NCBI GenBank assembly: GCA_002898175.1
Contig: BDSW01000257.1
Coordinates: forward strand, 1 to 37,934
DNA length: 37,934 bases
Source: a bacterium BMS3Abin04
Lineage (GTDB): Bacteria > Bacteroidota > Ignavibacteria > Ignavibacteriales > Melioribacteraceae
Reading direction: 5' to 3'
In this document: positions 12,080 through 33,933 of the stretch, one piece after another
Layout: each line of letters begins with the position of its first letter
Position numbering within the stretch: position 1 is the stretch's first letter
Notes under the pieces: generated by a model
Told to the model about the DNA's origin: nothing
The model's database searches: none
Seen by the model: only the letters and a program-made list of their open reading frames with translations
Made by a program: the position numbers and the translations under genes

Positions 12080-13459
12080 ATGGGACAACAAGATTTTTCC
12101 AGGGTGAAAGATTTAATAAATTCTGATGATGTTTCTGTAATTAAAGTTACAGCAGAAAATTTTTTATTAACTGAAATGCCGGATCAAATAGTTGCTTTTT
12201 TTGCCGAAAAACTTTTAAGCTCTCATTATGGCATAAGGGACTCGGTTTCAAATGCGTTAATTTTAAACAAAAATCAACGTATACCGGAAATTGTAATGCA
12301 GTATATTGCATCCCAAAATAGTTATACTAGAAATTTAGCAGGGGAAATTTTACTGGCAAAAGGAGATAAATCGGTAGATGCTTTGTTAAACCATTTACAC
12401 AAGGGTGATGATGATGAGAAAAAGTTTGTTATTGATATCCTTGGCTTAATTGGAAATGTAAAATCTGAGGATGCAATTATAGATTTACTAAATGAGAGCA
12501 AGGAAGATAATGTCCTTTTAGCGTGCATTGAAGCTTTAGGTAATATTAAATCTAAAAAAGGTATAAAACCGATAATAAAAATGTTTGATATTGATGAATT
12601 ATTTCATCCGACAATTATGGAGGCTTTAGGAAAAATTGGAGGTGAAGAAGCAGCTGAGTTTATTTTGGAAAATTATTCCCAAGTCGATGATTTAACTAAA
12701 TTTTCTATAATTGAAAGTTTAGGTACAAGCAAGAATAAAAATGCTTTCTATTTACTTTCTGAACATTTAAAATCTTATTCCGGTCCCTTAGCCTGGGCAA
12801 CACTTGAAGCTCTAATCAAATTAAAGAAAGATCTAAATTTGGTTTTAGAGTATGATGAGAAATTAAGGGCAATTATTTTAGATATATTATTAGAAGGAGA
12901 TGATAGATATAAAATAGCAGCAATTAATTTTACAAAATCATTTGAGGATAAGGAGATCCTTATTACATCAATGAATATCTATGGCGAAAACGAAGAGATT
13001 GACGAAAAACTTAGATACAATTTCTTTAGTAACTCCGAACTTTTTCTGTCTTACATACCGGAAATAATCTCCGCTTCATCGTCAAATATTAAACTACTTC
13101 TTCAAACAGTTAAAGATATAATTGCAAATGACGGGGGAGAAAGTTATTTAAAACTTTCTGAACTAAATAGAAATAACTTTGCAAATGCTTTAGCAAGTAA
13201 TTTAAGAAACCACGATGAAGAAGTAAGAATGTTATGTGTTGAATTATTGTTTTTCCTTAGTCCGGAAACCGCTCTTATGTTCTTGGATACCATGGTAGAA
13301 GATGACAGTTTGTGGAATAAGTTAAGACTAATGGAAATTATTAGGGAAAGTTCTGATAAACGAATAATAACAACTATTCAAAAACTAGCCGACGATCCCG
13401 AAGAAATGGTAAAAGAAACGGCAGAACAAATTTTAAATGTTTATGGGTTACTTCAATAA
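12080..13459 (+). CDS. HEAT-repeat protein heading the chemotaxis operon
   Basis: This 459-aa soluble, all-helical protein is built of HEAT/PBS-lyase-type repeats along most of its length. Repeating units of about 30 residues are visible, for example GDKSVDALLNHLHKGDDDEK, DNVLLACIEALGNIKSKKGI and LFHPTIMEALGKIGGEEAAE. It has no signal peptide, membrane helix or catalytic motif. Such repeats are protein-binding scaffolds. It lies 22 nt before cheR and shares the promoter of the che genes. Its job in chemotaxis is unknown to me. A scaffold for CheR or the receptor array is conceivable, but nothing in the sequence proves it. The start at 12080 lacks a close Shine-Dalgarno sequence. Confidence 0.85.
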   Translation: MGQQDFSRVKDLINSDDVSVIKVTAENFLLTEMPDQIVAFFAEKLLSSHYGIRDSVSNALILNKNQRIPEIVMQYIASQNSYTRNLAGEILLAKGDKSVDALLNHLHKGDDDEKKFVIDILGLIGNVKSEDAIIDLLNESKEDNVLLACIEALGNIKSKKGIKPIIKMFDIDELFHPTIMEALGKIGGEEAAEFILENYSQVDDLTKFSIIESLGTSKNKNAFYLLSEHLKSYSGPLAWATLEALIKLKKDLNLVLEYDEKLRAIILDILLEGDDRYKIAAINFTKSFEDKEILITSMNIYGENEEIDEKLRYNFFSNSELFLSYIPEIISASSSNIKLLLQTVKDIIANDGGESYLKLSELNRNNFANALASNLRNHDEEVRMLCVELLFFLSPETALMFLDTMVEDDSLWNKLRLMEIIRESSDKRIITTIQKLADDPEEMVKETAEQILNVYGLLQ

Positions 13460-14397: not shown

Positions 14398-14763
14398 ATG
14401 AAAAAAGTAATACTAGTTGCTGATGATTCTCCGACTATTAGAAAGTTTGTTTCATTTTCGCTTAAGATGAGTGGCTTTGAAGTACTGGTGGCATGCGATG
14501 GTATGGAGGCTGCAGAATTACTTCCTAAGTATAATGTGGATTTAATTATTACGGATTTAAATATGCCGAATTTAGATGGATTCGAATTAATTAAAGCAAT
14601 TCGTGAAAATGAAAATAATAGAAATATACCAATAATAATTCTTTCCTCGCTAAACGGGAATGAAGATATTCAACGGGGATTGGAATACGGAGCAAATTCC
14701 TATTTGGTTAAGCCGTTCGATCCTAAACGAGTTCAGTATGAAGTTGCTAAATATTTAAATTAA
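14398..14763 (+). CDS. Single-domain CheY-like response regulator (first of two)
   Basis: This 121-aa stand-alone receiver domain has all phosphorylation residues: acidic pair D9/D10, phospho-acceptor D53 in IITDLNMPNLDG, Ser in ILSS and K105 in VKPF. Tyr102 corresponds to the switch aromatic Y106 of E. coli CheY. No output domain is present. It sits between cheR and the second receiver, with a 12-nt gap to the latter, so CheA is the likely phosphodonor. One of the two proteins probably binds the motor and the other may be a phosphate sink or adapt another process. Sequence alone does not settle which. Confidence 0.9.
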   Translation: MKKVILVADDSPTIRKFVSFSLKMSGFEVLVACDGMEAAELLPKYNVDLIITDLNMPNLDGFELIKAIRENENNRNIPIIILSSLNGNEDIQRGLEYGANSYLVKPFDPKRVQYEVAKYLN

Positions 14764-14775
14764 GGATAATTAATT

Positions 14776-15153
14776 ATGGAACCAAATTTCTTAGTTGTAG
14801 ATGATTCTGTAACCATGAGAAGAATTGTTACGAATTCTCTTAAAGCATTAGGTTATACGCAATATATAGAAGCAGCAGACGGCAAAGAGGCGCTTGAAAA
14901 GTTAAATGCCAATGCCGGCGTTAATTTTGTTATTACAGATTGGAATATGCCGGTTCTTTCCGGTTTGGAACTGACTAAAGCTATTAGAAGTCACCCGGAA
15001 AAATCCAACCTGCCTATTTTAATGGTAACTACTAGAGGAGTTAAGGAAGATATCCTTCAGGCTTTGCAGGCAAGAGTATCTAATTATGTTGTAAAACCGT
15101 TTACTCCAAAAATATTAAAAGAAAAAATCGATGCAATTTTAGCAACTGTTTAA
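14776..15153 (+). CDS. cheY: Chemotaxis response regulator CheY (second receiver)
   Basis: This 125-aa receiver is closer to classical CheY. It has the acidic pair D9/D10 in VVDDSVTMRR, phospho-acceptor D55 in FVITDWNMPVLSGLEL (the TDWNMP block is shared with enteric CheY), Thr in MVTTRG, Y104 and K107 in VSNYVVKPF. It should be phosphorylated by CheA, bind the N-terminal motif of FliM and be dephosphorylated by the CheZ-like product of the next gene, 10 nt downstream. The direct cheY-cheZ adjacency supports the assignment. Confidence 0.93.
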   Translation: MEPNFLVVDDSVTMRRIVTNSLKALGYTQYIEAADGKEALEKLNANAGVNFVITDWNMPVLSGLELTKAIRSHPEKSNLPILMVTTRGVKEDILQALQARVSNYVVKPFTPKILKEKIDAILATV

Positions 15154-15163
15154 GGAATGTGAA

Positions 15164-15928
15164 ATGAGTGATTTGCATAGCAATATGGAAGATGTACTTA
15201 AGAAAGTATCGGATCTTAAAGTTCTCTTTGAATTTGGGGAAAAGATAGTCCCGATTCTGGAAAGCCTAACGCAGTTTTTAGACGAAACGGTTCCTTTGCT
15301 GGAAAGTATAAATGAATCAATATTAGAAAGTTCGAACAGGATGCCTGAGGCATCTACTCAGATTGATAGTGTTACTTCGGCAACTGAATTAGCTACAACC
15401 GAAATATTGGATTTGGTAGATGAAATAACAGACAAAATAGGGAATACAAAAAACATTTTACTAAACTCAAAGAAAAAAGTAAATATGCAGCTTGAGTTAA
15501 TGGAAAAATTAAAAAATACAGTTCAAGAAAACCCGGAAGCGGTTAAGTTGGTTGATGAACTTATTAGTAGCTTTACAAAATATGAAGAAATTGAAACAAC
15601 TGAAAAAATACTTACGGAAGTGGAAGAAGCTTCTTATAAGATAACTCTTTCGCTTCAAGTGCAGGATATTACTTCTCAACAACTAGCTGCCGTTAATCAT
15701 TTAATAATTGCTGTTCACGAAAAGCTGGATAACTTGTTAAATGCTATCGATAAATCCGCTGTAGAAAAGGGTGTAAGTTTATCTGAGAAAAAATTACAAA
15801 GTGGTCAGCATTTTGATGCCGATGCTGCTTATAGTAAGGATAAAGATTTACAAAAAGATGTTGATACAATAGTTGAAGAACAGCAGCAGAAAGCATCACA
15901 AGCAGAAATAGACAAACTATTTTCATAA
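15164..15928 (+). CDS. cheZ: Divergent CheZ-like CheY-P phosphatase
   Basis: This 254-aa, almost entirely helical and acidic protein lies directly after cheY. Overall similarity to enteric CheZ is low, but the active-site region is recognisable. SLQVQDITSQQL places D168 and Q172 four residues apart, exactly as D143 and Q147 in QDLTGQ of E. coli CheZ; the Gln positions the attacking water. Helices at ~15-160 would form the long hairpin of the dimer. After a flexible, charged linker (~200-240) the protein ends SQAEIDKLFS, a CheY-binding-type peptide very similar to the FliM N-terminus encoded in this window (SQNEIDQLL). The call rests on these two motifs and on position; the family is known to be highly divergent outside Proteobacteria. 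Confidence 0.82.
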   Translation: MSDLHSNMEDVLKKVSDLKVLFEFGEKIVPILESLTQFLDETVPLLESINESILESSNRMPEASTQIDSVTSATELATTEILDLVDEITDKIGNTKNILLNSKKKVNMQLELMEKLKNTVQENPEAVKLVDELISSFTKYEEIETTEKILTEVEEASYKITLSLQVQDITSQQLAAVNHLIIAVHEKLDNLLNAIDKSAVEKGVSLSEKKLQSGQHFDADAAYSKDKDLQKDVDTIVEEQQQKASQAEIDKLFS

Positions 15929-32940: not shown

Positions 32941-33933
32941 ATGGCAGAAGTATTATCACAAAACGAGATTGATCAGCTGTTAAACAATATGGGTTCTTCC
33001 GAACAGGGAGAAAGTAAGGGAAATATCCAAATACCTTCTTCTAATCCTGAGGTTATTCCATTTGATTTTAGATTACCGAATAGAATATCTAAAAATCAAC
33101 TTCGAACGATTAGGAATATTAATGAAAACTTTTCCGAACTTTTCAGTTCCTATTTATTATTGAAACTTCAATCAATTATTAATATAAACGTCGTTTCAGT
33201 TGACCAAATATATTATTCCGAATATGTACTTTCGGTTTCTAATCCTGCATGCCTGTTTACTTTTGACGTAAAAAAAACAGATATTAAAGGGATTTTAGAA
33301 TTTAGTAACGAGTTTGCATTTACACTGATCGATAGATTATTAGGCGGTAATGGTGCGGGAACGAAAAGTTCAAACATAATTACAACAATTGAACAGAAAG
33401 TACTGGGTGGTGTGGTTGAGAAAATAATGCTTGATCTTCGTAAAGCTTGGCAAATAGTCGGTGATTTTGAATTTGTTTATGACAAATTTGAACCTGATGT
33501 TGATTTTGCTCAGATAACTTCTCAAAGTGAAAGTGTTTTACTAGTTACCTTTGAAATAACAATAGGTGACCAGTCATACTTAATGAATTTATGTTTTGCT
33601 ACTTATGCATTTGATGCAATATTATCTCAAATGGCTAATCAGAGTTTATCTTCTATTCGTCCGGTAAAATATAACGGTACAACTTCTAAAAATATTTTAG
33701 GTGAAAATATTGTTTACACCGAAATAAAAGTGGAAGTGGAATTTGCCCGTTCAACGATATTGTTTAATCAACTAATGCAATTAGAAGTTGGTGATGTAAT
33801 TAGCACAAATAAAAAGTTAGGGGAAGAGGTGCTGATAAAAATAGGTGATAAGAAATTATTTTACGGAATACCTGGAAAACTAAACGGACATAAATCAGTT
33901 AAAATTACAAAAAGTGTACATCAAGAGGAGTAA
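32941..33933 (+). CDS. fliM: Flagellar motor switch protein FliM
   Basis: This 330-aa switch protein has the N-terminal CheY-P binding peptide EVLSQNEIDQLLNNM, a middle CheC-like domain (~45-225) and a C-terminal SpoA domain (~245-325). Recognisable segments are IPFDFRLPNRISKNQLRTIR, FEFSNEFAFTLIDRLLGG-type sequence, and a C-domain with LEVGDVISTNKKLGEEVLIK. It receives CheY-P from the upstream chemotaxis operon and sits between FliG and FliN in the C ring. The neighbours fliL and fliN confirm it. Its first motif is matched by the CheZ tail in this window. Confidence 0.97.
   Translation: MAEVLSQNEIDQLLNNMGSSEQGESKGNIQIPSSNPEVIPFDFRLPNRISKNQLRTIRNINENFSELFSSYLLLKLQSIININVVSVDQIYYSEYVLSVSNPACLFTFDVKKTDIKGILEFSNEFAFTLIDRLLGGNGAGTKSSNIITTIEQKVLGGVVEKIMLDLRKAWQIVGDFEFVYDKFEPDVDFAQITSQSESVLLVTFEITIGDQSYLMNLCFATYAFDAILSQMANQSLSSIRPVKYNGTTSKNILGENIVYTEIKVEVEFARSTILFNQLMQLEVGDVISTNKKLGEEVLIKIGDKKLFYGIPGKLNGHKSVKITKSVHQEE

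Follow-up and report, generated by a model that had tools for sequence, protein, structure and literature searches.

CheZ of E. coli has SQDQVDDLL at its C-terminal end and binds CheY on the face that FliM uses; a FliM-like tail on a CheZ is thus not new in itself. A che operon of the bacterium BMS3Abin04 (Ignavibacteria; Melioribacteraceae) raised the question whether a CheZ outside Proteobacteria, which also ends in a FliM-like peptide, could capture CheY-P by its tail, and at how many sites. The operon lies in a stretch of 37,934 nucleotides (assembly GCA_002898175.1, contig BDSW01000257.1, positions 1 to 37,934), in the following called the window, to which all coordinates refer. A first reading made from the letters without database searches (the sequence-only reading) had proposed that this CheZ ends in a copy of the FliM motif and that CheY-P may be held by the very peptide that it uses on the motor. 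The coordinates, the letters of the tail, the match to FliM and the catalytic pair D168/Q172 given in that reading were all correct.

The cheZ Gene and Its Neighbors

The cheZ gene (15164..15928, + strand) is one open frame of 254 amino acids, assigned from its translation and from Pfam CheZ to a CheY-P phosphatase homolog. The C-terminal letters of the translation are EEQQQKASQAEIDKLFS, and a longer C-terminal stretch reads QQQKASQAEIDKLFS. The order of the operon is HEAT-repeat protein, cheR, cheY1 (14398..14763, + strand), cheY2 (14776..15153, + strand), cheZ, cheA and cheB; then come flagellar genes including fliM (32941-33933), whose product starts with MAEVLSQNEIDQLLNNM and therein carries the N-terminal CheY-binding motif SQNEIDQLL (32956..32982, + strand), recognized from the translation and from the FliM of relatives.

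The relatives were found by a profile search of genome contigs, a single-protein query having given no matches, and the closest named genomes with CheZ matches belong to the Melioribacteraceae, class Ignavibacteria. In 78 of the 80 named loci cheY2 is located directly 5′ of cheZ, and in 72 of those 78 cheA follows directly 3′. The gene of the HEAT-repeat protein (12080-13459 in the window) adjoins cheR on the 5′ side in most related che operons.

Family, Catalytic Pair and Fold

Judged from its sequence the window gene encodes a CheZ homolog outside Proteobacteria, which would be active as a phosphatase. Pfam CheZ (PF04344) matches the window protein at 3.8e-5, under the gathering cut-off, and NCBIfam gave no CheZ match for it; the same Pfam family is matched by 70/70 aligned orthologs at E ≤ 1e-3 (best 2.3e-14). 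When a profile of 42 orthologs was compared with the PDB, E. coli CheZ (1KMI) was the top chain (E = 0.0011), with designed coiled coils scoring near it. The catalytic block LQVQD168ITSQ172Q (15653..15682, + strand) is invariant or nearly so in alignment A1 (42 sequences, assembled without the motif pattern) and in alignment A2; D168 and Q172 themselves are invariant in both and pair with D143 and Q147 of E. coli CheZ (QDLTGQ). The assignment to CheZ outside Proteobacteria, for which the sequence-only reading had relied on this pair, is borne out by the Pfam matches of the orthologs together with the invariant DxxxQ. The genome contains one CheZ match only, and CheC and CheX, which do the same job outside Proteobacteria and belong to unrelated Pfam families, gave no match in it.

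Distant CheZ-like proteins encoded beside cheY and cheB at three other loci (L205, L206, L207) have HDIV[ST]Q replacing QDITxQ and end in NQDDIDDLFG or ISQADIDALF[AS].

The AlphaFold2 monomer consists mostly of two long helical segments (pTM 0.45). Between these segments, a presumed helical hairpin, and the tail lies a low-confidence linker (residues 202-226; 15767..15841, + strand) in which no helix is predicted (pLDDT < 50 at 202-215), followed by two separate short tail helices, residues 227-241 and 246-253. Ahead of the tail helices stands an FDxxAxY block, FDADAAY in the window protein (15812..15832, + strand), of which A221 is invariant and F217 and Y223 are kept in at least 90% of the sequences (alignments A1 and A2). 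When Foldseek was run with this monomer, CheZ was absent among the matches listed, which were generic long-helix proteins only, so that the fold stays putative. Sequence and predicted structure together point to a C-terminal helix of the CheY-binding type after a flexible linker.

The Terminal Motif and the FliM Peptide

The terminal motif S245-QAEIDKLFS (15896..15925, + strand) coincides with the second of the predicted tail helices. SQAEIDKLF is identical to SQNEIDQLL of the window FliM at 6/9 positions, and the shared residues include the contacts Q8, I11, D12 and L14 (FliM numbering). In the E. coli FliM-CheY complex, L6 contacts A90/I95, Q8 contacts V108, D12 contacts K119, and I11 and L14 contact I95, A99 and Y106 of CheY (PMC3774744 Table 3). 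The CheZ tail retains all of these FliM residues but Leu6, the equivalent of which is usually Ala or Thr, so that the Leu6 contact is absent. Compared with the FliM peptide (LSQAEIDALL), with which it agrees at the other four contact positions, the window motif is located at the C-terminus of an enzyme and has Lys at position 13 and Phe for Leu at position 15; the LL of FliM at 14-15 is thus replaced by Leu-Phe. The same difference runs through the relatives: their FliM is nearly always LSQxEID[QAL]LL (motif seen in 40/43 FliM loci), whereas their CheZ tails are mostly [ST]QxEIDKLF. Every FliM examined in distant genomes has the motif once, at the protein start.

Calling the tail a copy of the FliM motif was therefore loose wording for a real match that includes the contact residues; and of the claim that CheZ uses the very peptide of the motor, the conserved holding residues stand, but the peptide is not the same, with its KLF and without Leu6. 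By their sequences the two peptides appear kindred in contact chemistry, yet consistently distinct, nine residues being compatible with common descent and with convergence alike.

The sequence-only reading had been made to depend beforehand on conservation of the tail among orthologs. The motif [ST]Q-x-[ED]-[IVL]-[DN]-x-[LIM]-[FLI] was found in the last 16 residues of 115/133 unique complete orthologs, a count that, coming from overlapping genome collections, is not one of independent events, though the tree is deep; in shuffled tails (2000 shuffles each) the rate was 0. Q246, I249, D250, L252 and F253 are invariant in alignment A1. Pairwise comparison of the codons for the contacts Q8, I11, D12, L14 and F15 in 79 orthologs gave 7699 synonymous vs. 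454 nonsynonymous differences, a ratio helped by the selection of these orthologs with a pattern fixing Q, D and F. In the same set Ile stands at position 11 in 78/79, Leu at position 14 in 74/79 and Phe at position 15 in 79/79, the last being required by the pattern and invariant in alignment A1 too. The codons indicate that the terminal motif of CheZ is under purifying selection at the contact positions.

A chance likeness in a short tail of low complexity is so improbable on this evidence that we rejected it. The bare codon pattern Q-x-[E/D]-I-D-x-[YTN codon] is by itself not rare (8 matches in the 3.66-Mb genome, both strands counted, vs. 5 with the reversed pattern as control), and only CheZ and FliM among these matches have Ser/Thr before the Gln at a protein terminus. 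What argues against chance is that position and residues are kept across orthologs only about 35–57% identical to the window protein and that codon variation at the motif is dominated by synonymous changes.

A Second, Degenerate Copy

Just 5′ of the terminal motif, Q230-KDVDTIV (residues 230-237; 15851..15874, + strand) forms a second, degenerate copy, which the sequence-only reading had missed and which falls into the predicted helix 227-241. Q230 is invariant, and D234 is invariant in alignment A1 and present in at least 90% of alignment A2; Ala often takes the place of Val/Ile, and most of the upstream copies are without Ser before the Gln. A separate degenerate upstream copy was found in 124/133 orthologs and any such match in 0.6% of shuffles, figures that are descriptive, the looser pattern having been composed after the sequences were seen.

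The profile alignment puts the E. coli CheZ tail SQDQVDDLL onto the upstream copy and not onto the terminal motif, a placement in which local alignment favors the nearer copy. The Pfam CheZ match also ends at the upstream copy (Pfam positions to 198/203), and counted from the catalytic Gln, the motif lies 55 residues away in E. coli, the upstream copy of the window protein 58 and its terminal motif 74. In addition, four CheZs from the same class (L193, L194, L195, L204) end soon after the upstream copy, as E. coli CheZ does. The upstream copy therefore probably corresponds to the tail of E. coli CheZ, which would make the FliM-like end an extra site; position, alignment and spacing all speak against that end as the counterpart of the E. 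coli tail.

E. coli CheZ (1KMI) is otherwise like the window CheZ, as far as sequence and model predict, in the DxxxQ pair, the helical hairpin, the flexible linker, the C-terminal Q-xx-hD-xhh helix and the cheY-cheZ gene pair; to this the window CheZ adds the FliM-like SQxEIDKLF end and the conserved FDxxAxY block. E. coli CheZ and five other proteobacterial CheZs, taken from plasmid-collection records, have one motif each and end in ...VDDLLxSLG[FM], whereas the window CheZ has two.

Being degenerate, the upstream copy may bind CheY weakly or not at all. It is conceivable, and in our estimate the most serious of the alternatives though clearly the less probable reading, that CheY is bound at the terminal SQxEIDKLF only and that the upstream QxxVDxIV helix is structural, packing on the bundle or the FDPNAxY block or serving in oligomers. 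This would fit with the terminal copy being the closer one to FliM, with the upstream copy adjoining the conserved FDxxAxY block, and with the arrays described below, in which it is the canonical copies that multiply. It fits less well with the alignment of the upstream copy to the CheY-binding tail of E. coli CheZ, and with the four CheZs mentioned above, which lack the terminal copy and keep the upstream motif alone, near the C-terminus as in E. coli. We therefore continue with two sites per chain as the preferred reading.

CheY2 as the Probable Partner

The surface expected of a partner for a FliM-type peptide (K119, Y106, I95, V108) was found in CheY2. In 77/77 sequences CheY2 has T87, K92, Y106, F111, T112, L116 and K119, and position 95 is always I or V; the window CheY2, with K92, Y106, T112 and K119, is thus the predicted partner of both the CheZ tail and FliM. 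CheY1, the second receiver, has E119 in 77/77 and S87 in 72/77 sequences, and Lys is not among the four commonest residues at position 92. Since D12 pairs with K119, CheY1 is an unlikely partner. There is a parallel in CheY4 of Vibrio cholerae: with Thr in place of K119, it shows no binding to FliM, and efficient binding to CheZ was inferred to be lacking as well (PMC3774744). A matching surface is found on CheY2 alone. The sequence-only reading had both CheYs in view for peptide binding; by residues, CheY2 is compatible and CheY1, with its E119, is not.

CheY2 also has an invariant Arg at the place of E. coli E89 and Leu/Met at that of A99 (77/77), two positions close to the active site and to the face that binds FliM.

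Arrays of Tail Motifs in Related CheZs

In a phylum-wide sample a CheZ match was found in 62/396 genomes, and several of these proteins carry more than one canonical copy besides the upstream one: five in L176 and L213, four each in L178 and L180 (SQSAIDALF and PQDEIDNLF counted), three in L197 and L198, and two in L173, L181, L183, L185, L200, L203 and L212. A Rhodothermus MAG contig (L157) has at least four canonical copies before its available sequence ends. The copies in L176 and L213 are spaced by 15–16 residues and differ from one another mainly at synonymous sites. When traced on a tree built from the catalytic part, the multi-copy state requires 6 changes, of which well-supported branches force at least 3. 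The relatives with the larger arrays (L176, L213, L178, L180, L197, L198, L157) share phosphatase, operon and motif with the window CheZ, from which they differ in having 3–5 canonical copies plus the upstream one. Their sequences suggest multivalent capture of CheY-P in related CheZs. A limited literature search yielded no account of tandem or array CheZ tails, and a text search of the literature for the peptide string nothing relevant; as far as this search goes, the tandem and array layout of CheZ tails is undescribed.

Two variants of the tail were seen besides. The CheZ of L202 has three further repeats, DEDIDIDALFAAN, without the SQ start, beside a canonical terminal motif. In L199, L201 and L204 two cheZ genes stand in tandem in one operon, both without a terminal FliM-like copy.

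Tails in Genomes without FliM

Three of the multi-copy CheZs (L197, L198, L200) come from genomes of one genus (G376, G321, G313) that are 99% complete. FliM and FlhA gave no match in these genomes, which retain cheY1, cheY2, cheZ and cheA, with a CheZ of 2–3 canonical copies and, close to cheZ, a CheY2-type CheY of the same surface sequence. For the tail this favors a role in capturing CheY over a mimicry tied to FliM, and the idea of a FliM-dependent mimicry does not hold for these genomes.

FliM and FlhA are likewise absent from G279 and G128, which belong to the group with tandem cheZ genes.

The retention of the motif in the absence of FliM and FlhA could also be taken to mean that the terminal peptide has a binding partner different from CheY, or localizes CheZ to the motor or the receptor array, the likeness to FliM then reflecting another shared partner. 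CheZ is indeed localized in E. coli and other bacteria, through other parts of the protein (PMC7750401). We think this improbable: these genomes also encode, near cheZ, a CheY2-type CheY whose surface sequence is the same, all FliM-CheY contact residues but Leu6 are kept in the tail, and K119, the partner in the salt bridge, is invariant in CheY2. For these reasons a tail serving in localization only was rejected.

Proposed Mechanism

A CheZ-type CheY-P phosphatase with tandem CheY-capturing sites in its tail is, in our judgment, quite probably the best explanation of sequence, model and comparison with known systems. Our direct observations concern the sequence and its conservation, the number of copies, the order of the genes, the surface residues of the CheYs and the predicted helices; from these we infer that the tail binds CheY, that it competes with FliM, that the protein is active as a phosphatase and that capture is multivalent, as follows. 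The window CheZ most likely works as E. coli CheZ does, with two tail sites per chain. The long helical hairpin, which is expected to dimerize into a four-helix bundle, would bear the catalytic D168/Q172. A flexible linker would join it to a tail with two short helices, the upstream Q230-xx-VDxIV and the terminal S245-QAEIDKLF, each built like the CheY-holding peptide of FliM and of E. coli CheZ. The tail would catch CheY2-P on the α4-β5-α5 face, with Gln bound to the backbone of V108, Ile/Leu to I95/Y106 and Asp to K119, take it out of the competition with FliM and hand it over to the catalytic bundle. E. coli CheZ owes its main affinity for CheY-P to the short C-terminal helix on a flexible tether; the tethers might bridge CheZ dimers via CheY-P, and highly active oligomers were proposed (PMC1447658). 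With two sites on each chain, and hence four in a dimer, the local concentration of CheY-P would rise and dimers could be cross-linked, and in relatives with 4–6 sites an effect of the same kind would be stronger.

A variable number of tail sites beside a catalytic motif that stays single would also be expected if the tails served mainly as a buffer for CheY-P in competition with FliM, phosphatase activity being secondary. There is little probability to this, since D and Q of the catalytic pair are invariant in alignment A2 and the genome, in which CheC and CheX found no match, contains no other CheY-P phosphatase of a known type.

Significance

The findings support CheZ as the only recognizable CheY-P phosphatase in a lineage outside Proteobacteria. 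Natural CheZs with 1–6 peptide sites form a series in which valency can be tested against CheY-P lifetime, cooperativity and competition with the motor, and through copy number the proposed cross-linking of dimers by CheZ tethers into active oligomers (PMC1447658) becomes testable. For the group as a whole we consider a wider view about as likely to be right as wrong: in Ignavibacteria, Rhodothermia and their relatives, CheZ would be a multivalent CheY-P trap with a tail helix of the E. coli type and 1–5 extra FliM-like peptides, expanded or lost several times, whose copy number may tune the avidity and cooperativity of the phosphatase and its competition with the motor, and which in some genomes would act without any flagellum.
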